In this document: positions 30,328 to 52,574 of the stretch, in pieces
Position numbering within the stretch: the first letter of the stretch is position 1
How the letters are laid out: each line of letters starts with the position of its first letter
Notes under the pieces: generated by a model
What the model was told of the DNA's origin: nothing
Seen by the model: the letters and a program-made list of their open reading frames with translations, nothing else
Databases searched by the model: none
Assembly (NCBI RefSeq): GCF_027213785.1
Contig: NZ_JAPWGO010000012.1
Location: forward strand, 1-64,000
DNA: 64,000 nucleotides
Direction: 5' to 3'
Source of the DNA: Limimaricola sp. G21655-S1
Lineage (GTDB): Bacteria; Pseudomonadota; Alphaproteobacteria; Rhodobacterales; Rhodobacteraceae
Program-made: the position numbers and the translations under genes

Positions 30328-30990
30328 TCACCCCTTCAGCAGCCGCAGCCCCTGGGTCACATCGGTCCGCACCGCCAGCCGCAGTCCCGGCTCGTCCCCG
30401 GCCCTGAGCGCCGCGAGGATCAGCTTGTGATGATAGGGCGGCTCGGTGCGGCGCAGTCGCCCGTAAAGCGCCCGCATGGTGGGGCCGAGCTGCAGCCAGA
30501 CGGTCTCGGTCATGGCGAGGATCGCGGGCGACTGGGCCCGCAGGTAGAGCGTGCGGTGAAATTCGAGATTCATGCGGATATAGCCGGTGGCGTCGTGCCG
30601 GGCGACCATCTGGCTGACCCCGGCATTGATCGCTTCGAGCCGGTCGATCAGCGCGAAATGCGCCCGTGGCAGCGCCCGCGAGGCCAGTTCCGGCTCGAGC
30701 ATGGCGCGCAGCGCTGCCAGTTCCTCGATCCGCTCGTTGGTGAGTGCCGGCGTCGCGACGCGGCCCGAGGAGGAGAGCGACAGCGCGCCCTCGGCCACCA
30801 GCCGCCGCACCGCTTCGCGGGCGGGGGTCATCGACACCTCGAACAGCTTGCCGATGCCGCGCAGCGTCAGCGATTCACCGGGGGCGATCTCGCCATGCAT
30901 GATGCGGGTTCTGAGCGAGCGATACACCCGGTCATGCGCCGCCCCGGCGGGGTCGGGGGCGCGGGGGGTGGCGACGGCGGGCGGGATCAC
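30328..30990 (-). CDS. GntR-family regulator with FCD domain
   Basis: This 220-residue regulator has a winged-helix domain (HDRVYRSLRTRIMHGEIAPG, then LRGIGKLFEVSMTPAREAVRRL). A C-terminal all-helical FCD ligand domain follows, with the metal-binding Asp/His pattern (NLEFHRTLYLRA, PYHHKLILAALRAGD). FadR-type GntR proteins usually sense organic acids. The start is GTG at 30990, overlapping the upstream metalloprotease stop (GTGA). No target is obvious in the neighbourhood. Confidence 0.9.
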   Translation of the reverse strand: MIPPAVATPRAPDPAGAAHDRVYRSLRTRIMHGEIAPGESLTLRGIGKLFEVSMTPAREAVRRLVAEGALSLSSSGRVATPALTNERIEELAALRAMLEPELASRALPRAHFALIDRLEAINAGVSQMVARHDATGYIRMNLEFHRTLYLRAQSPAILAMTETVWLQLGPTMRALYGRLRRTEPPYHHKLILAALRAGDEPGLRLAVRTDVTQGLRLLKG

Positions 30991-33760: not shown

Positions 33761-35149
33761 TCAGGCGTGGATCGCGCCGTCGCCCAGTGCCAGCGCCGCC
33801 TCGCGCACGCCCTCGCTATAGGTGGGGTGGGCGTGGCAGGTGCGGGCCAGATCCTCGGCGGCGGCGCCGAACTCCATCGCCACGCAAACCTCGTGGATCA
33901 GGTCGCCGGCCATCGGGCCGATGATATGCGCGCCGAGGATCCGGTCGGTCTTTTTGTCGGCGAGGATCTTCACGAAGCCCTCGGCCGAGAAGTTGGCCTT
34001 TGCCCGCGCGTTGCCGAGGAACGGGAACTTGCCGACCTTGTAGCCGCGGCCTTCCTCCTTGAGCTGCTCCTCGGTCTTGCCGACGGTCGCCACCTCGGGG
34101 TGGGTGTAGACGACGCCGGGGATCACCTCGTAATTCACGTGGCCCTTCTGGCCCGCGAGGATCTCGGCGATCGCCACGCCCTCATCCTCGGCCTTGTGCG
34201 CGAGCATCAGCCCGGGCACCGCGTCGCCGATCGCATAGACGCCGTCGACGCTGGTCTTGAAATGATCGTCGATCTTGATCTGACCGCGATCGGTCATCTC
34301 GACGCCGAGCTCTTCGAGACCCAGCCCTTCGACATAGGGCTTGCGACCGGTGGCCACGAGCACGCAATCGGCCGTCAGGCTTTCCTCGCTGTCGTCCTTG
34401 CGGCTCTTCCAGGTCACGGTGGCCTTCTCGCCCTCGACCGCGACACCCTGGACCGCCGAACCCAACACGAACTTCAGCCCCTGCTTGGTCAGGATCTTCT
34501 GGAAGTTGCGAGCGACTTCGGCATCCATGCCCGGCGTGATCGCGTCGAGATACTCGACCACGGTGACCTCGCTGCCGAGACGGCGATAGACCGAGCCCAG
34601 CTCCAGCCCGATCACGCCGGCGCCGATCACCACCATCTTCTCGGGGATGCGGCCCAGCTCCAGCGCGCCGGTCGAGGTCACGACGACCTTCTCGTCGATC
34701 TCGACATTGGGGATCGAGGAGGGGACGGAGCCCGAGGCGATGACGATGTGCTTGGCCTCGTGGGTCTCGTCGCCGACCTTGACCTTGCCCGCCTCGGGGA
34801 TCGAGCCCCAGCCCTTGAGCCAGTCGATCTTGTTCTTCTTGAACAGGAATTCGATGCCGCCAGTGTTCTGGCCGACGCTGTCGCGCTTGTAGGCGAGCAT
34901 CTGGTCCCAATCCACCGTCGGCGTCTCGGCCTTCAGGCCCATCTTGGCGAAGTTGTGCTCGGCCTCGTGCAGCGCGTGGGTGGCGTGCAGCAGCGCCTTG
35001 GAGGGGATGCAACCCACGTTGAGGCAGGTGCCGCCCAGCGTCTCGCGCCCCTCGACCACCGCGGTCTTGAGGCCGAGCTGGGCCGCCTTGATGGCGCAGA
35101 CATAGCCGCCGGGGCCGGCGCCGATGACGATGAGATCGTAGGATGCCAT
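33761..35149 (-). CDS. lpdA: Dihydrolipoyl dehydrogenase (E3)
   Basis: This 462-residue flavoenzyme reoxidises the lipoyl groups of 2-oxoacid dehydrogenases with NAD+. The FAD motif [13 protein letters not shown], the redox disulfide Cys42-Cys47 ([13 protein letters not shown]), the NAD motif [15 protein letters not shown] and the C-terminal active-site His in [13 protein letters not shown] are all present. It is the last gene of the minus-strand 2-oxoglutarate dehydrogenase cluster, separated from sucB by a small ORF and two MAPEG genes. It is therefore most likely the E3 of that complex. Confidence 0.96.
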
Positions 35150-36368: not shown

Positions 36369-37613
36369 TCACAGATCCATCAACAGCCGGCGCGGATCCT
36401 CGAGCGCTTCCTTGACGCGCACGAGGAAGGTCACGGCGCCCTTGCCGTCGACGATGCGGTGATCGTAGCTCAGCGCCAGATACATCATCGGCCGGATCTC
36501 GACCTTGCCGTTGATCGCCATCGGGCGGTCCTGGATCTTGTGCATGCCGAGGATGCCCGACTGCGGCGGGTTCAGGATCGGCGAGGACATCAGCGAGCCG
36601 TAGACGCCACCGTTGGAGATGGTGAAGGAACCGCCCTGCATGTCGGCCATGCTGAGCTTGCCGTCGCGCGCCTTCACGCCCATCTCGGCGATCGACTTCT
36701 CGATCTCGGCAAAGCCCATGCTGTCGGCGTTGCGGATCACCGGCACCACGAGGCCGGTGGGGGTGCCCACCGCGATGCCCATGTGGACGTAGTTCTTGTA
36801 GACCACGTGATCGCCGTCGATCTCGGCGTTGACGTCCGGGACCTCCTTGAGCGCGTGCACGCAGGCCTTGGTGAAGAAGGACATGAAGCCGAGCTTCACG
36901 CCGTGCTTCTTCTCGAACAGCGCCTTGTACTCGTTGCGCAGCTCCATCACCGCGGTCATGTCCACCTCGTTGTAGGTGGTCAGCATCGCGGCGGTGTTCT
37001 GCGCCTCCTTGAGGCGGCGGGCGATGGTCTGGCGCAGACGGGTCATCTTGACCCGCTCCTCGCGGTCGGCGTCGTCCGACGACACCGGGCCGCGCGCGGC
37101 GGGTTTGGAGGTTTCGGCGGGCTTGGGCGCGTTGAGCGCCTTCAGCACGTCTTCCTTCATCACCCGGCCATCCTTGCCGGTGCCCTTGACGTCGCCTTCC
37201 TTGAGGTCGTTCTCGGCCATCAGCTTCTTGGCCGAGGGCGCGTCCTCGGTGTCACCCTTGGCTTCGCCCTTCTCCGCGGGCTCGCCCTTGGGGTCGCCCG
37301 AGACATTGGTCGCCGCCTGCTGCTCCTTGGGGCCATCCTCGGCCGGCGCCTCGGGCTCGGACTTGGCGGGCGCGTCGCCCTCGCTCACCTGGGCGAGCAG
37401 CGCGTCGACGCCGACGGTGTCGCCTTCGGCCGCGACGATCTCCGACAGCGTGCCGGCGACGGGCGAGGGCACCTCGACCGTGACCTTGTCGGTTTCCAGC
37501 TCGCACAGCATCTCGTCCACCGCGACGGCGTCGCCCGGCTTCTTGAACCAGGTGGCGACGGTCGCCTCGGTGACGCTTTCGCCCAGGGTGGGGACGCGGA
37601 CTTCGGTGCTCAT
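36369..37613 (-). CDS. sucB: Dihydrolipoyllysine succinyltransferase (E2 of 2-oxoglutarate dehydrogenase)
   Basis: This 414-residue protein has one lipoyl domain with Lys43 in [12 protein letters not shown] Pro/Ala/Glu-rich linker covers ~80-120 and a peripheral subunit-binding domain ~125-160 ([20 protein letters not shown]). The catalytic acyltransferase core has [14 protein letters not shown] near the C-terminus. The core text ([28 protein letters not shown] in part) identifies E2o rather than pyruvate E2. It starts at ATG 37613, two bases after the sucA stop. Confidence 0.96.
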
Positions 37614-37615
37614 TC

Positions 37616-40579
37616 TCAGTTTCCTTCGATGCTCAGCGCTTCGTTCACCAGCGCTTGCTGTTGGGTCTTGTGCTGGCTGGCGAGGCCGGTCGCGGGCGAG
37701 GCGCTCGCATGGCGGCCGACATAGGTGGGGCGCTTATGCGCGGCGTCGATCCGGCTCAGCACCCATTCGATGTTGGGCTCGATGAAGTTCCAGGCGCCCT
37801 GGTTCTTGGGCTCTTCCTGGCACCAGACCATCTCGGCGCCCTTGAACCGCTCCAGCTCCTTCACGAGGCTCAACGCCGGGAAGGGATAGAACTGCTCGAT
37901 CCGCATCAGGTAGACATCGTCCAGCCCGCGCGCGTCGCGCTCTTCCAGAAGGTCGTAATAGACCTTGCCCGAGCACATTACGACGCGCTTGATCTCGCTG
38001 TCGGGCTTGAGCTGGGTGTCGCTGTGGCCCTTCTCGGCGTCGTCCCACAGCACGCGGTGGAAGGACGAACCGGTGGTGAAATCCTCCGCGTCCGAGATCG
38101 CCATCTTGTGGCGCAGCAGCGATTTCGGCGTCATCAGCACCAGCGGCTTGCGGAAGGTGCGGTGCAGCTGCCGGCGCAGGATGTGGAAGTAGTTCGCCGG
38201 GGTCGAGCAGTTGGCGACGATCCAGTTGTCCTGGCCGCACATCTGCAGGAACCGCTCGAGCCGCGCCGAGGAGTGCTCGGGGCCCTGGCCCTCGTAGCCA
38301 TGCGGCAGCAGCATCACGAGGCCCGACATGCGCAGCCACTTCGATTCACCCGAGGAGATGAACTGGTCGAACATGATCTGCGCGCCGTTGGCGAAATCGC
38401 CGAACTGCGCTTCCCACATCACCAGCGCGTTGGGCTCGGCCAGCGTGTAGCCGTATTCGAAACCCAGCACCGCGTATTCGGAGAGCATCGAGTCGATGAC
38501 CTCGTAACGCGCCTGTCCGTCGCGGATGTTGTTGAGCGGGTAGTAGCGCTCCTCGTTCTCCTGGTTGATGAAGGCCGAGTGGCGCTGCGAGAAGGTGCCG
38601 CGGGTGCTGTCCTGGCCCGAGAGCCGGACCGGGTAGCCCTCGGTCAGCAGCGAGCCGAAGGCCAGCGCCTCGGCCGTGGCCCAGTCGAAGCCCTTGCCGG
38701 TCTCGAACATCTGCCCCTTGGCGTCGAGCAGGCGCGAGACGGTGCGGTGCAACGGGAAGCCCTCGGGCGCGCGGGTGATGGCGCGGCCGATCTCGGTCAT
38801 CGTCTTCTCGTCGATCGCGGTCTGGCCGCGCTGGTAGCTTTCGTGGTCGCGCCGGTCGAGATGGCTCCAGCGCCCGTCGAGCCAGTCGGCCTTGTTCGGG
38901 CGGTAGGTCTTGCCGGCCTCGAACTCCTCGCCCAGCATCGCCTGGAACTGCGCCTTCATGTCCTCGATCTCGCCCTCGGGGATCAGCCCGTCGCGGACGA
39001 GCCGCTCGGTATAGAGCGTGAGCGTGGTCTTCTGGTTCTTGATCTTCTTGTACATCACCGGGTTGGTGAACATGGGCTCGTCGCCCTCGTTGTGACCGAA
39101 GCGGCGGTAGCAGAAGATGTCGATGACGACGTCCTTGTGGAACTTCTGCCGGAACTCGGTCGCCACCTTGGCGGCGTGCACCACGGCCTCCGGGTCGTCG
39201 CCGTTGACGTGGAAGATCGGCGCCTCGACCATCAGCGCAATGTCGGTGGGGTAGGGCGAGGAGCGCGAGAAATGCGGCGCGGTGGTGAAGCCGATCTGGT
39301 TGTTCACGACGATGTGGATCGTGCCGCCGGTGCGGTGACCGACGAGGCCCGACAGGCCGAAGCCCTCGGCCACGACGCCCTGTCCCGCGAAGGCCGCGTC
39401 GCCATGCAGCAGGATCGGGATCACCTGGGTGCGGTCGGTGTCGCCGAGCTGGCTCTGCTTGGCGCGCGCTTTGCCGAGCACCACCGGGTTCACCGCTTCG
39501 AGGTGGGAGGGGTTCGCGGTCAGCGACAGGTGCACCTTGTTGCCGTCGAACTCGCGGTCCGAGGAGGCGCCGAGGTGGTACTTCACGTCGCCCGATCCAT
39601 CGACCTCCTCGGGCTTGAAGCTGCCGCCCTGGAATTCGTGGAAGATCGCCCGGTAGGGTTTCTGCATGACGTTGGCGAGCACCGAGAGGCGACCGCGATG
39701 CGGCATGCCGATCACGATGTCCTTCACGCCGAGCTGGCCGCCGCGCTTGATGATCTGCTCCATCGCCGGGATCAGCGCCTCGCCGCCGTCGAGGCCGAAG
39801 CGCTTGGTGCCCATGTACTTGACATGCAGGAATTTCTCGAAGCCCTCGGCCTCGACCAGCTTGTTCAGGATCGCCTTGCGGCCTTCCTTGGTGAACTGGA
39901 TCTCCTTGCCGTAGCCCTCGATCCGCTCCTTGAGCCAAGCCGACTGCTCGGGATCGGAGATGTGCATGTATTGCAGCGCGAAGGTGCCGCAATAGGTGCG
40001 CTTCACCAGCGCCAGGATCTCGTTCATCGTCGCGATCTCGAGGCCGAGCACGTTGTCGATGAAGATCGGCCGGTCCATGTCGGCCTTGGTGAAACCGTAA
40101 TTCGCGGGGTCCAGCTCGGGATGCGGCGTCTGCTCGCGCAGGCCCAGCGGATCGAGATCGGCGGCGAGATGGCCGCGGATCCGGTAGGCGCGGATGATCA
40201 TCAGCGCACGGATGCTGTCGAGCACGGCGGCGCGCAGCTGCTGCTCGGACAGGCCCACGCCCTTCTCGGCGGCCTTGGCGGCAATCTTGTCGCGCGCGCC
40301 CTTGGCTTCGGCAGGCGCGGCCCACTGCCCGTCGAGCGCGGCCGTCAGGTCGTCATTGGGCTGCATCGGCCAATCGGCGCGGGCCCAGGACGGGCCGGCG
40401 GCCTCGGCGCGGGCATCCGAGCCGCTGTCGCCGAGGCTGCGGAAGAACTCCTGCCAGGCCTCGTCGACGCTCGACGGGTTCTCGGCATAGCGCGCGTGAA
40501 GCTGTTCGATGTAGTCGGCGTTCGTGCCCTGCAGGAAGGAAGAGGCGTGGAACACGTCGTTGGGGCTTTGCTCGGTCAT
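37616..40579 (-). CDS. sucA: 2-oxoglutarate dehydrogenase E1 component
   Basis: This 987-residue thiamine-diphosphate enzyme decarboxylates 2-oxoglutarate and transfers the succinyl group to E2. Recognisable blocks are the N-terminal [49 protein letters not shown] with the ThDP region [10 protein letters not shown], and [12 protein letters not shown]. The C-terminal half has [34 protein letters not shown] and the tail [14 protein letters not shown]. The start ATG at 40579 follows AAGGA; an in-frame extension upstream lacks the family N-terminus. A hairpin lies between it and sucD. Confidence 0.97.
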
Positions 40580-41576: not shown

Positions 41577-42770
41577 TTACCCCTTCACCGCTTTGACGAT
41601 CTTCTCGGCGGCGTCGGACAGGTTGTCCGCCGCGATCACGTCGAGACCGGAATTGTTGATGATCTCCTTGCCCTGATCGACATTCGTCCCTTCGAGACGC
41701 ACGACCAGCGGCACCTGCAGACCGACTTCCTTGACCGCCGCGATCACGCCCTCGGCGATGACGTCGCAGCGCATGATGCCGCCGAAGATGTTGACCAGGA
41801 TGCCTTTGACGTTCTGGTCGGAGGTGATGATCTTGAAGGCCTCGGTGACCTTCTCCTTGGTCGCGCCGCCGCCCACGTCGAGGAAGTTGGCCGGTTCCGC
41901 GCCCTTGAGCTTGATGATGTCCATCGTCGCCATGGCGAGGCCCGCGCCGTTCACCATGCAGCCGATCTCGCCGTCGAGCGCGATGTAGTTCAGGTCGTAT
42001 TTCGAGGCGGCCAGCTCCTTGCTGTCCTCCTCGGTCTCGTCGCGCAGCGCGGCGATGTCGTCGTGGCGGTAGATCGCGTTGCCGTCGAAGCCCATCTTGG
42101 CGTCGAGGCATTTCAGGTCGCCCTTGTCGGTGACGATCAGCGGGTTGATCTCCAGCATCTCCATGTCCTTCTCGACGAAGAGACGATAGAGCGTGTCCAT
42201 CAGCTTGACGCACTGCTTGACCTGCTGGCCCTTGAGGCCGAGGGCAAAGGCGATGCGGCGGCCGTGATAGGGCTGGTAGCCGGTGGCCGGATCGACCGAG
42301 AAGCTCAGGATCTTCTCGGGCGTCTTCTCGGCGACCTCCTCGATATCCATGCCGCCCTCGGTCGAGCAGACGAAGGAGATGCGCGAGGTGGCGCGATCGA
42401 CCAGCAGCGCGAGATAGAGTTCGGTCTCGATCTCAGAGCCGTCCTCGATGTAGATGCGGTTGACCTGCTTGCCCGCCGGGCCGGTCTGGTGCGTGACCAG
42501 CGTGCGGCCGAGCATCTTCTTGGCTTCCTCGGCCGCCTCCTCGACGGAGCGGGCCAGGCGGACGCCGCCCTTCTCGCCGGCATCGGCCTCCTTGAAGCTG
42601 CCCTTGCCGCGGCCGCCTGCGTGGATCTGCGCCTTCACCACCCAAAGCGGGCCGTCGAGTTCGCCAGCCGCGGTTTTCGCCTCTTCGGCGCGCATGACGG
42701 GTCGCCCGTCCGAGACGGGCGCGCCGTAGCTGCGCAGAAGGGCCTTGGCCTGATATTCGTGGATGTTCAT
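41577..42770 (-). CDS. sucC: Succinyl-CoA synthetase beta subunit
   Basis: This 397-residue ATP-grasp protein begins [19 protein letters not shown]. It has the nucleotide-binding segment [15 protein letters not shown], and the C-terminal CoA-ligase part [20 protein letters not shown] then [15 protein letters not shown]. The length is normal. It is the first gene of the sucCDAB-lpd cluster; the paired GTGATCAC operator lies 95-129 bases upstream of its start. An in-frame extension to 42875 would run into that operator and is rejected. Confidence 0.97.
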
Positions 42771-42864: not shown

Positions 42865-42899
42865 AACGTGATCACAAGAAAAAATCATGTGATCACGTT
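42865..42899. promoter_or_regulatory. Paired GTGATCAC operator upstream of sucC
   Basis: Two identical octamers, GTGATCAC at 42868-42875 and 42889-42896, lie 21 bp apart centre to centre. Flanking AAC/GTT bases extend the arms to 11 bp. The 13-base spacer is A-rich. The same arrangement with another spacer occurs before sdhC (48686-48718). Each octamer is itself palindromic, so two protein dimers on one face of the helix fit best. The rest of the 42771-43091 gap shows only a small hairpin at 42927-42942. Confidence 0.7.
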
Positions 42900-43091: not shown

Positions 43092-43937
43092 TCAGATGAC
43101 CCGGCGCTTGAGGTTGCCCAGAAAGCTGCGCCAGCCCGTACGGTGCGGCGTCGGCGCGACCGGCGTGCCACCGGTGACCGGGGCGTAGTGGGTCAGCGTC
43201 TGGTCGTTGTCGAGGAACTCCGCCAGCTTGGCGATCTGCGGCGGGGCCAGAACCTCATCCGCCGAAAAGGGGCGGAGCGGATCGCCTGCGGGCTTCTGGT
43301 GCAGCTTGGGTTCGTGAAGCAGGCGCGGCGCCGTGTAGCCGTTGCCGTTCAGCATGAAGGGGCGGAAGAACATGACGTTGTATTCCACCGGCAGCACATG
43401 CAGCCGAAGGTCGCCCTCGTAGAGCAGCACCCGCAGCGCCGGTTGATCGAATTTCTGGGTGCCGTCATGCACCATGGCATGCCAGTCCTCGAGAAAGCGG
43501 TCGGTCGCGGGGTTGCGCCGGATCGCCATCACACCGCCATTCATCTGCGGAAAGGCTGGCGGCACCGGATGGCCCGGATACTGTTCGCGGTTTCGGTAGT
43601 CGTTGCGCCGCTGACTCGCCGTCACGGCGACGTCGAAGCGGTCGAGAATGTCGAATACGTCGTCGAGCGGCGCCAGCGTGACGATGTCGGCATCGAGATA
43701 GATGGTCCGCGCGAATCTCGATCGCTGCAGGGATTCCATCTTGGGGCGGCGGGACACCTGTTCGAGAAGGTGAACCCTGTCGAAGACCTCGTCTTCGAGG
43801 GGCGCATCGGTGAAGAGGTCGATCTTCGCCGAGGGCATGACCCCCCTGAGGTTGCGCGCCGCGCGCCGGGCGAGGGTGACGTAGTCCTTGCCGGTCACCG
43901 CGAAAACGAAACCGCGGTCGAGGTCTTGATCCGTCAT
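43092..43937 (-). CDS. Nucleotide-diphospho-sugar transferase-like glycosyltransferase
   Basis: This 281-residue protein resembles GT-A fold transferases. Its N-terminal strand is GFVFAVTGKDYVTLARRAARNL, a DxD motif appears in ARTIYLDADIVTLAPLDDVFD, and an acceptor-side block reads PPAFPQMNGGVMAIRRNPAT. The C-terminal ~40 residues (TPHRTGWRSFLGNLKRRVI) are basic and might touch the membrane. Donor and acceptor are unknown. It lies 57 bases after mdh on the same strand, but no polysaccharide genes surround it. Confidence 0.75.
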   Translation of the reverse strand: MTDQDLDRGFVFAVTGKDYVTLARRAARNLRGVMPSAKIDLFTDAPLEDEVFDRVHLLEQVSRRPKMESLQRSRFARTIYLDADIVTLAPLDDVFDILDRFDVAVTASQRRNDYRNREQYPGHPVPPAFPQMNGGVMAIRRNPATDRFLEDWHAMVHDGTQKFDQPALRVLLYEGDLRLHVLPVEYNVMFFRPFMLNGNGYTAPRLLHEPKLHQKPAGDPLRPFSADEVLAPPQIAKLAEFLDNDQTLTHYAPVTGGTPVAPTPHRTGWRSFLGNLKRRVI

Positions 43938-43994: not shown

Positions 43995-46350
<2,356 letters not shown>

Positions 46351-48685: not shown

Positions 48686-48718
48686 CCGTGATCACAGTCT
48701 TGAGGACTGTGATCACGG
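48686..48718. promoter_or_regulatory. Paired GTGATCAC operator upstream of sdhC
   Basis: The octamer GTGATCAC occurs at 48688-48695 and 48709-48716, 21 bp centre to centre. Perfect symmetry extends to 14-bp arms (CCGTGATCACAGTC and its complement) around TTGAG. Spacing is identical to the pair before sucC although the spacer sequence differs. It lies 140-172 bases before sdhC. Read as RNA it would also fold into a strong hairpin, so a terminator role for the upstream DUF1737 unit is the alternative; no T-run follows. Confidence 0.7.
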
Positions 48719-48857
48719 CCGGCATTTTCCCGCCTGATTTGCCGAATTTCCCACGGGTTTCAGCGAAGGCATGGGTGACAGACGGCCCAAAATCGCTAGG
48801 GATAAGCCAGCCGGGGCCGCCCGAGGGCCGGCCCGCACGCCAGATAAGGACGACGCC

Positions 48858-49241
48858 ATGGCCGACGTGAACCGGGGCAACCGCCCGCTTTCGCCCCATA
48901 TGACGATCTACAGATGGCCGATCACCGCGATCACCTCGATCCTGACCCGGATCACCGGCAACGCGATGATCGTCGCCGCCGCCTTGATCGTCTGGTGGTT
49001 CGCCGCCGCCGCTGCCGGGCCCGAAAGCTTTGCCACCGCCGACGGTTTCCTGCGCAGTTGGTTCGGCGATCTGGTGCTGTTCTTCTCGGTTCTCGGCCTG
49101 TGGTACCACACGCTCGCGGGCATCCGGCACCTGATCTGGGACGAGGTGAAGATGCTCGAGATCGACAAGGCCGAGCTGCTGAGCCAGATCATCCTGATCG
49201 TCTCGGTCCTGCTGACCATCTTCACCGTCGTCGTTCTCTGA
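48858..49241 (+). CDS. sdhC: Succinate dehydrogenase cytochrome b556 subunit
   Basis: This 127-residue membrane anchor has three helices. The SdhC signature NRPLSPHMTIYRWPITAITSI opens the protein, and the haem-ligand block WYHTLAGIRHLIWDE lies in helix 2. The start ATG at 48858 follows AAGGA; upstream in-frame sequence is not family-like. It is the first gene of the sdh operon and with SdhD forms the quinone and haem b site. Confidence 0.96.
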   Translation: MADVNRGNRPLSPHMTIYRWPITAITSILTRITGNAMIVAAALIVWWFAAAAAGPESFATADGFLRSWFGDLVLFFSVLGLWYHTLAGIRHLIWDEVKMLEIDKAELLSQIILIVSVLLTIFTVVVL

Positions 49242-49637: not shown

Positions 49638-51443
49638 ATGGCAGCCTACGAATACGAGACCCACGAATACGACGTGGTGGTGGTCGGCGCCGGCGGCGCG
49701 GGCCTGCGTGCCACGCTCGGCATGGCCGAGCAGGGCCTGCGCACCGCCTGCATCTCCAAGGTCTTTCCGACCCGCTCGCATACCGTCGCGGCGCAGGGCG
49801 GCATCGCCGCCAGCTTGGGCAACATGGGCCCCGACAGCTGGCAGTGGCACATGTACGACACGGTGAAGGGCTCCGACTGGCTCGGCGACACCGATGCCAT
49901 GGAGTACCTCGCCCGCGAGGCCCCGAAGGCGGTCTACGAGCTGGAGCATTACGGCGTGCCCTTCTCGCGCACCGAGGAGGGCCGGATCTACCAGCGCCCC
50001 TTCGGCGGCCACACCACCGAGTTCGGCGAGGGCCCGCCGGTGCAGCGCACCTGTGCCGCCGCCGACCGGACCGGCCACGCGATCCTGCACACGCTCTACG
50101 GTCAAAGCCTCAAGCAGAAGGCCGAGTTCTACATCGAGTATTTCGCCATCGACCTGCTGATGGACGATGACGGCACCTGCCGTGGCGTTCTGGCGTGGAA
50201 GCTTGATGACGGCACGATGCATGTCTTCGCCGCCAAGACCGTGGTTCTGGCCACCGGCGGCTATGGCCGCGCCTATTTCTCCGCCACCTCGGCGCATACC
50301 TGCACCGGCGATGGCGGCGGCATGGTGGCGCGGGCCGGGCTGCCGCTGCAGGACATGGAGTTCGTGCAGTTCCACCCGACCGGCATCTACGGCGCGGGCT
50401 GCCTGATCACCGAAGGCGCGCGTGGCGAGGGCGGCTACCTCACCAACTCCGAGGGCGAGCGCTTCATGGAGCGCTACGCGCCGACCTACAAGGATCTCGC
50501 CTCTCGCGACGTGGTCTCGCGCTGCATGACCATGGAGATCCGCGAAGGCCGGGGCGTCGGCAAGGATGGCGACCACATCCATCTGCACCTCAACCACCTG
50601 CCGCCCGAGACCCTGGCCGAGCGTCTGCCCGGCATCTCGGAATCGGCGCGGATTTTCGCCGGCGTGGATCTCACCAAGGAGCCGATCCCGGTGCTGCCGA
50701 CCGTGCATTACAACATGGGCGGCATCCCCACGAACTACTGGGGCGAGGTGCTGAACCCGACGGCCGAGAACCCCGACGCGGTGACCCCGGGTCTGATGGC
50801 GGTGGGCGAGGCGGGCTGCGCCAGCGTGCATGGCGCCAACCGGCTCGGCTCCAACTCGCTGATCGACCTCGTGGTGTTCGGCCGCGCCGCGGCGATCCGG
50901 GCGCGCGAGGTGGTCGATCCCGCGACCTCCGTGAAGGCCCCGGCCAAGGCGTCGATCGAGAAGGCCTTCGACCGCTTCGACGGTCTACGCCACGCCAAGG
51001 GCGGCGTGCCGACGGCCGAGCTGCGGCTTGAGATGCAGCGCAACATGCAGGCCGACGCGGCGGTGTTCCGCACCGACAAGACCCTCGCAGAAGGCATGCA
51101 GAAGATGCAGGCCACGGCGGCGAAGATGGACGACATCCATGTTACCGACCGCAGCCTCGTGTGGAACTCGGACCTGATGGAGACGCTGGAGCTGGCCAAC
51201 CTGATGCCGAACGCGCTGGCCACCATCACCGCCGCCGAGGCACGCAAGGAAAGCCGCGGCGCCCATGCGCACGAGGATTATCCCGACCGCGACGACGAGA
51301 ACTGGCGCAAGCACTCCCTCGCCTGGATCGAGGGCAACACCGCGCGGCTCGACTATCGCCCGGTGCATCTCGATCCGCTGACCAAGGCCGAAGAGGGTGG
51401 TATCGATCTCAAGAAGATCGCGCCCAAGGCGCGGGTCTACTGA
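49638..51443 (+). CDS. sdhA: Succinate dehydrogenase flavoprotein subunit
   Basis: This 601-residue catalytic subunit oxidises succinate to fumarate. The FAD motif is [21 protein letters not shown], with covalent FAD on the His in [18 protein letters not shown]. Substrate and proton-relay residues lie in [34 protein letters not shown]-type text and [18 protein letters not shown]. The C-terminus ends [15 protein letters not shown]. The length is normal. Its stop overlaps the start of a small lipoprotein gene inserted before sdhB. Confidence 0.98.
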
Positions 51444-51794: not shown

Positions 51795-52574
51795 ATGGTC
51801 CAGCTCACCCTTCCGAAGAACAGCCGCATCACCCATGGCAAGACCTGGCCCAAGCCCGAGGGCGCGACCAACTTGCGCAAGGTGCAGATCTATCGCTGGA
51901 ACCCCGATGACGGGAAGAACCCGCGCGTCGATACCTATTTCGTCGATGTCGACAGCTGCGGACCGATGATTCTCGACGCCCTGATCAAGATTAAGAGCGA
52001 GATCGACCCGACCCTGACCTTCCGCCGCTCCTGCCGCGAGGGGATCTGCGGCTCCTGCGCGATGAACATCGACGGAATCAACACGCTGGCCTGCACCTAT
52101 GGCCTCGACGAGGTGAAGGGCGACATCAAGATCTACCCGTTGCCGCACATGCCGGTGGTCAAGGACCTGATCCCCGACCTGACCCATTTCTACGCCCAGC
52201 ACGCGAGCATCAAGCCGTGGCTGGAGACCGAGACCAACACCCCGGCCAAGGAATGGCGCCAGTCGATCGAGGACCGCAAGAAGCTCGACGGGCTCTACGA
52301 GTGCATCATGTGCGCGTCGTGCTCGACGGCTTGCCCCTCTTACTGGTGGAACGGCGATCGCTATCTCGGGCCGGCGGCGCTGCTGCATGCCTATCGCTGG
52401 ATCGTCGACAGCCGCGACGAGGCCACGGGCGAGCGGCTCGACGATCTCGAGGACGAGTTCAAGCTCTACCGCTGCCACACCATCATGAACTGCGCCAAGA
52501 CCTGCCCCAAGGGGCTGAACCCCGCGAAGGCGATCCAGTCTATCAAGCACATGATGGTCGAGCGCGCCGTATGA
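51795..52574 (+). CDS. sdhB: Succinate dehydrogenase iron-sulfur subunit
   Basis: This 259-residue subunit carries electrons from FAD to quinone. The 2Fe-2S ligands are in [19 protein letters not shown] and the following NTLAC. The 4Fe-4S ligands are in [13 protein letters not shown], and the 3Fe-4S ligands in [23 protein letters not shown] precedes the ATG at 51795. The stop overlaps the DUF1989 start. Confidence 0.98.

Follow-up and report, generated by a model that had tools for sequence, protein, structure and literature searches.

Two operons of the lower tricarboxylic acid (TCA) cycle, sucCDAB and sdhCDAB, are each preceded by a pair of GTGATCAC octamers. The regulator of these sites is very probably a GntR/FCD protein of the AkgR type (protein A), two dimers of which would activate both operons from upstream. 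Both pairs and the gene for A lie in the window, which is the whole 64,000-nucleotide stretch of DNA analyzed here.

Octamer pairs before sucC and sdhC

The initial annotation of the window had reported two GTGATCAC octamers before sucC and two before sdhC, and the observation was confirmed as real, with all four octamers being exact (Table 1). The distance between the gene start and the near end of its pair is 98 bp for sucC and 142 bp for sdhC. When up to three mismatches were allowed, five pairs with a 13-base spacer (N13) were found in the window compared to 0.28 expected, and only those before sucC and sdhC were exact. In the whole genome (4.23 Mb), exact GTGATCAC-N13-GTGATCAC occurs twice, both times in the window. 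Since the 4.23 Mb contain 106 single octamers, chance alone would give 0.003 exact N13 pairs, and the objection that the paired motif might occur at random genome-wide fails.

Table 1. Coordinates of the features in the window
Feature	Coordinates	Strand	Basis
Operator pair before sucC	GTGATCAC octamers 42868-42875 and 42889-42896 (span 42868..42896)	.	13-base spacer; exact; conserved before sucC in relatives
Operator pair before sdhC	GTGATCAC octamers 48688-48695 and 48709-48716 (span 48688..48716)	.	13-base spacer; exact; conserved before sdhC in relatives
sucC, first gene of sucCDAB operon	41577..42770	-	ORF; Pfam ATP-grasp_2/Ligase_CoA
sucD	start 41571	-	ORF; name read from sequence
sucA	37616-40579	-	ORF; name read from sequence
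sucB	36369-37613	-	ORF; name read from sequence
lpd, further down from sucB	33761-35149		ORF; name read from sequence
Predicted sdhC promoter	48775..48802	+	-35 GTGACA 48775-48780, -10 TAGGGA 48797-48802 (weak match)
sdhC, first gene of sdh operon	48858..49241	+	ORF; Pfam Sdh_cyt
sdhA	49638-51443	+	ORF; name read from sequence
sdhB	51795-52574	+	ORF; name read from sequence
GntR/FCD regulator gene (A, locus L061), GTG start, 220 aa, putative octamer binder, AkgR-type	30328..30990	-	PF00392 and PF07729; self-site in orthologues; co-occurrence

Two other reading frames of the window are recorded here as side observations. An ORF at 43092-43937 (minus strand), between mdh and sucC, resembles nucleotide-diphospho-sugar transferases (PF03407). 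Another at 45118-46350 (minus strand), PRC-barrel-like by eye, contains a long internal run of repeats between two similar halves.

Conservation and target genes

A panel of 61 genomes, 37 of them from the same family (own genome included), was searched with the pattern GTGATCACN{0,30}GTGATCAC. A pair with a spacing of 0 to 30 was present in 34 of the 61 genomes and in 31 of the 37 same-family genomes, mostly as two pairs each. The places were classified using the SucC, SdhC, and SdhA proteins of the window as queries. Of the 63 places, 54 had the N13 spacing, and all of these were located before sucC (28) or sdhC (26). Two more with N12 were before sucC and seven with other spacings were elsewhere, giving 56 of 63 at sucC or sdhC. 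A scan of named genomes yielded, among the matches listed, 85 places in 80 loci, 39 before sucC and 32 before sdhC (71 of 85) and 14 before neither. Among these matches, 10 of the 14 came from other bacterial or archaeal groups, three were near the end of the locus, where the target gene was possibly cut off, and the last (L157) was a Rhodobacteraceae site of a different kind. A Pseudomonas locus of the named scan (L152) was rejected as a chance pair inside a transporter gene; its genome has only weak homologues of the window protein. The six family genomes lacking an exact pair (G011, G015, G021, G024, G028, and G036) had only scattered matches with one or two mismatches, and G021 had none.

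The presence of pairs before sucC and sdhC in most same-family genomes examined supports the proposal of the initial annotation that the lower TCA operons share a regulator, and it disposes of the worry that the motif might be absent before the orthologues of relatives. The wider list of candidate targets was recovered in part: suc and sdh were found, whereas mdh, acn, icd, and glt did not appear among the paired sites, all 54 N13 pairs of the panel being at suc or sdh. When 14 chosen family genomes were searched with TTGTGATCACA, 11 had a match, with 44 distinct sites after rows were collapsed; the own genome had none. Thirty-two of the 44 were at suc, sdh, or the regulator's own start, and no gene recurred among the remaining 12, which were inspected by eye. 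Therefore, no wide TCA regulon was found in these 14 genomes. A single TTGTGATCACA before lpd in G018 (L375, G018:C1:117491) is perhaps a further target.

Site anatomy

The alignment of 125 unique N13 sites (67 sucC and 58 sdhC, among the matches listed) gave the consensus TTTGTGATCACA-N11-TGTGATCACAAA, in which the flanks alone are informative because the sites were selected for perfect octamers. The outer flanks were mostly TTT/AAA, the base after the first octamer was mostly A, and the base before the second was mostly T. Each octamer is therefore predicted to be the core of a longer palindrome. The window's own two pairs deviate from this consensus in their outer flanks. The spacers had been described as unrelated and free. 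They are not entirely so, given the preferences at the two bases that adjoin the octamers. Complementarity between facing spacer columns was near shuffled levels in three of five cases and slightly raised in two (columns 9-19 and 11-17; P of 0.02 each with both sets together, 0.03 and 0.006 in the sdhC set alone). It was clearly raised over shuffles in the three nearest outer flank columns, as explained by an operator with dyad symmetry.

Promoter region and helical phasing

Between the pair and the gene, A/T-rich columns recur about 10 bp apart in both the sucC and the sdhC sets. Over offsets 29 to 107, none of 2,000 rolled controls reached the observed power. Over offsets 33 to 74, where operator flank and promoter boxes are excluded, none of 1,000 controls did, and the best periods were 9.8 and 10.3. 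Of the 58 N13 sdhC sites, 40 have the sequence GTGAC, a likely -35 element, beginning at offset 86-89 (counted from the first octamer), 12 have it elsewhere, and six lack it. The 12 displaced copies begin at 65, 76, 97, 97, 98, 98, 98, 99, 107, 109, 109, and 109. Eleven of the 12 deviate by no more than 1 nt from 87 ± a multiple of 11, which none of 200,000 random draws matched, and after reduction to nine lineages (by hand, with no tree and with related sites averaged) all nine fit 11-bp steps (1 of 200,000 draws), but these figures are not true probabilities because the 11-bp step was picked post hoc and the sites are related by descent. No convincing -35/-10 pair was found for the sucC promoter in the window's genus.

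The GntR/FCD regulator

Protein A carries an N-terminal GntR helix-turn-helix domain (PF00392) and a C-terminal FCD domain (PF07729), both scoring above the curated cut-offs; the own genome encodes 16 FCD-domain GntR proteins. An orthologue of A (at least 63% identity) was present in 29 of the 31 family genomes with the pair and in none of the six without it (Fisher P of 1.2e-5, ignoring relatedness). Two genomes have the pair and no orthologue at this threshold (G001 and G026), and both assemblies consist of more than 200 contigs. Among the FCD proteins of five pair-bearing genomes, counterparts of A were found in four (not in G026).

The strongest link of A to the octamer is A's own promoter. 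Of the 29 panel orthologues, all but the partial G034 copy (28) were examined, together with those of G061, G190, and Paracoccus denitrificans, for a total of 31. A perfect octamer was located at the regulator's own start (-150 to +10) in 14 of these 31, compared to 1 of 30 orthologues of L053, a PdhR-like GntR/FCD protein of the same genome. In 11 of the 14, TTGACN was found by script exactly 12 bp before this octamer, and in a twelfth (L355) a second TTGAC could be seen by eye 12 bp ahead of it. The predicted operator would therefore cover the regulator's -10 region. An octamer at the start is lacking in the other 17 orthologues. These include the seven of the window's genus, which have lost the self-site; four of them retain GTGATCCC at the start codon. 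In the window, GTGATCCC at 30983-30990 lies at the GTG start codon of A and is a one-mismatch match, and many relatives have a perfect octamer there. In A and its octamer-linked relatives the recognition helix follows the pattern S-x-[MT]-P-x-R, as it also does in the paralogue L063 and in the octamer-less relative L315.

Some side observations concern the other GntR/FCD proteins. L063 (own genome C66:29549-29914) is 39% identical to A and is encoded beside a glutamine-synthetase-like ORF; similar neighborhoods are found in G148 and on two Rhodobacterales plasmids. L053 is conserved in most of the family panel and is near sdh in some genomes.

Homologues outside the family

Pairs with N11-16 spacing were found in 4 of 237 genomes of the class outside the family (G050, G183, G148, and G239). 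In G183 and G148 the gene next to the pair encodes a homologue of A (E up to 1e-22); in G050 such a homologue is encoded about 2.5 kb from the pair. In G239 the pair is inside an ORF far from the A homologue, and this genome was counted as the one miss of the four. Since G050 and G183 share a genus, the three octamer-linked genomes represent two families. In G183 the pair separates the regulator from a TonB-receptor-like gene, and in G148 from an aldehyde dehydrogenase gene; in G050 it is 84 bp before a TonB-receptor-like gene, with the regulator at that gene's far end (all names read from sequence). The regulators of these three genomes and of a Caballeronia plasmid score higher against L063 than against A, and they are therefore evidence for a predicted octamer-binding subfamily and not for A alone. 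Pairs with other spacings were found in G040 (N4), in G052 (N10), and, as a second pair, in G050 (N24); no A homologue at E 1e-22 was found in G040 or G052.

Outside the family, an octamer was located within 1.5 kb of an A-like gene in 6 of 26 loci, with eight octamers in total, three of them in one locus, and 20 of the 26 had none. The commonest of eleven control palindromes of the same composition had four copies around the same 26 loci, compared to these eight. Among nine plasmid loci with an A-like gene, three (Shinella, Caballeronia, and Comamonadaceae) had the octamer upstream of the regulator at a distance of no more than about 120 bp, two had it elsewhere, and four lacked it. On the Caballeronia plasmid, the A-like regulator, which shares 34% identity with A and 27% with L053, is followed by SDR, keto-acid cleavage, and lactonase-family genes, and the octamer is at -28 of its annotated start.

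Alternative explanations

The strongest competitor for the role of binder is L053 (own genome C154:28421-29191), which would then be the true RSP_0981/AkgR. Orthologues of L053 (at least 58% identity) are present in 29 of the 31 genomes with the pair (Fisher P of 0.003, ignoring relatedness), and its counterparts were found in all five pair-bearing genomes scanned for FCD proteins. In G019, G023, and G033, the coordinates place L053 to the sdh side of suc, which fits the tag number RSP_0981. In contrast, the gene for A is on the lpd side of suc in the window and in several relatives; since the RSP_0981 tag is above the sdh tags RSP_0974-6, A may not be the counterpart of RSP_0981. In one of the 30 L053 orthologues (L266), an octamer precedes the start by 127 bp. 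However, at the 58% threshold L053 is also present in two of the six pair-less genomes and is absent from the pair-bearing G025 and G030. Octamers around its 30 orthologues are near the genome average (4 in 112 kb; 1 in 29 kb for the first 8 A loci), and no L053 homologue at E 1e-15 was found in the stretches around the pairs of G050, G183, and G148. Its recognition helix is SRPSLREA, like that of PdhR, and its identity to the regulator of the deoxyribonate-like cluster is lower than that of A (27% versus 34%). Taken together, a role of L053 at the pairs is rather improbable. The two other GntR/FCD candidates of the own genome, L063 and L051, are very unlikely. Although L063 outscores A with the regulators of G148, G183, G050, and Caballeronia, the FCD proteins of the five pair-bearing genomes include no counterpart of it above 37%. 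L051 does have counterparts in all five, but no octamer is found within 1.5 kb of either gene. A site known by another motif was also considered. FNR recognizes TTGAT-N4-ATCAA and PdhR recognizes TGGT-N3-ACCA. In the accessible part of PMC11323563, control of sdh and 2-oxoglutarate dehydrogenase in Rhodobacter sphaeroides is ascribed to CceR, and its site pattern is given as [AGT]GTT-N6-8-AAC[ACT] in the accessible part of PMC4344238. None of these three motifs has a match in the two upstream regions, which makes such an assignment highly improbable.

If A is the binder, it could repress suc and sdh instead of activating them. FCD regulators are often repressors, and an octamer placed over the regulator's own promoter suggests repression. 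However, a long distance separates the pairs from the predicted -35 downstream of them, with which they are in helical phase, and AkgR is termed a transcriptional activator in the accessible text of PMC6365646; repression at the pairs therefore seems unlikely. An RNA hairpin or attenuator formed by two inverted octamers would be compatible with the ability of palindromes to pair, with the self-complementary sdhC spacer of the window, and with the excess complementarity in spacer columns 9-19 and 11-17 and in the outer flanks. Yet the predicted sdhC promoter is downstream of the pair, the other three inner columns match shuffles, the window's sucC spacer is not self-complementary, and the outer-flank excess fits operator symmetry equally well. 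Compensatory changes are not visible in the octamers because the sites were selected for perfect ones. The initial annotation had favored a protein operator over a hairpin, and the fixed spacing, the position before sucC and sdhC, the small amount of spacer covariation, and the linked regulator family agree with it. A hairpin is thus barely plausible, and a shared protein regulator with two dimers two turns apart is well supported. Finally, although the octamer is not rare, coincidental repeats can be discounted almost entirely given the expectation of 0.003 exact N13 pairs and the conservation of both position and spacing in relatives.

Proposed mechanism

We suggest that each octamer, as a palindrome core, is bound by one dimer of the winged-helix/FCD protein A, and that two dimers would sit on one face of the DNA, two helical turns apart. 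At sdhC the pair would be far upstream of the promoter, at about -96 and -117 as computed from the predicted -10. From there, the dimers may activate sucCDAB and sdhCDAB, a role taken from the AkgR literature, probably by contacting RNA polymerase across A/T-phased and perhaps curved DNA. The single octamer over the regulator's own promoter in many relatives would repress, leading to probable autorepression. A more general operator grammar based on copy number and phase is conceivable and is offered tentatively. A single octamer over the own -10 would repress, and a pair at whole turns, joined by phased A/T tracts, would activate, with the subfamily having carried paired octamers to unrelated targets (TonB-receptor-like and aldehyde dehydrogenase genes) in other alphaproteobacteria.

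This reading would tie a strongly conserved lower-TCA promoter architecture of Rhodobacterales to one regulator gene, and it would provide a strict rule for upstream activation by GntR/FCD proteins: two dimers, 21 bp, and whole-turn phasing to the -35. With such a strict operator rule, regulon prediction should be straightforward in new genomes of the widespread Rhodobacterales.

Comparison with known systems

We take AkgR to be RSP_0981 (Imam et al. 2015 mBio abstract). The initial annotation knew of no named alphaproteobacterial regulator for this site, which turned out to be wrong: the accessible text of PMC6365646 reports GTGATCAC as the motif of AkgR, a GntR-family transcriptional activator of R. 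sphaeroides, and the same octamer makes up the window operators. In the accessible part of PMC4344238, the GntR-family RSP_0981 is the predicted regulator of sucCD (RSP_0967-6), sdh (RSP_0974-6), and 2-oxoglutarate dehydrogenase (RSP_0965-62), the operons that carry the pairs here. A is of the GntR family as well, and its tie to the window site is genomic. Apart from Imam 2015 mBio, the AkgR literature found, in its accessible parts, describes no 21-bp pair, promoter phasing, or regulator self-site, whereas the window family has these. Searches on the octamer with GntR, on TGTGATCACA, and on sdh and sucC operators gave no title on the paired architecture among the matches listed. The TTTGTGATCACA-N11-TGTGATCACAAA consensus, the phased A/T tracts, and the whole-turn shifts of the sdhC -35 were not found in print. 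Should RSP_0981 turn out to be L053, A would share this site with it and would itself be undescribed.

Other systems share some of these features. According to the accessible text of PMC6365646, the GntR-like PS417_07240 of a Pseudomonas deoxyribonate cluster and its homologues are preceded by a conserved GTGATCAC, and PS417_07240 is 32% identical to AkgR; the presumed counterpart of PS417_07240 in Caballeronia has a similar value with A (34%). The likeness extends to the octamer before the regulator's own start and to the Caballeronia cluster, which has similar gene content and an A-like regulator. PS417_07240 differs in being, as far as that text goes, a local catabolic regulator with a single octamer described. 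The PdhR/LldR/GlcC group has GntR and FCD domains as does A, but A scores only 19.5 bits against the NF007001 cut-off of 330, compared to 201.4 bits for the L053 protein. CceR resembles the proposed regulator in its reported control of TCA genes including sdh in R. sphaeroides (accessible part of PMC11323563), but it belongs to the LacI family and has another motif. Most likely, the pairs of the window are part of the lower-TCA control already described for AkgR.
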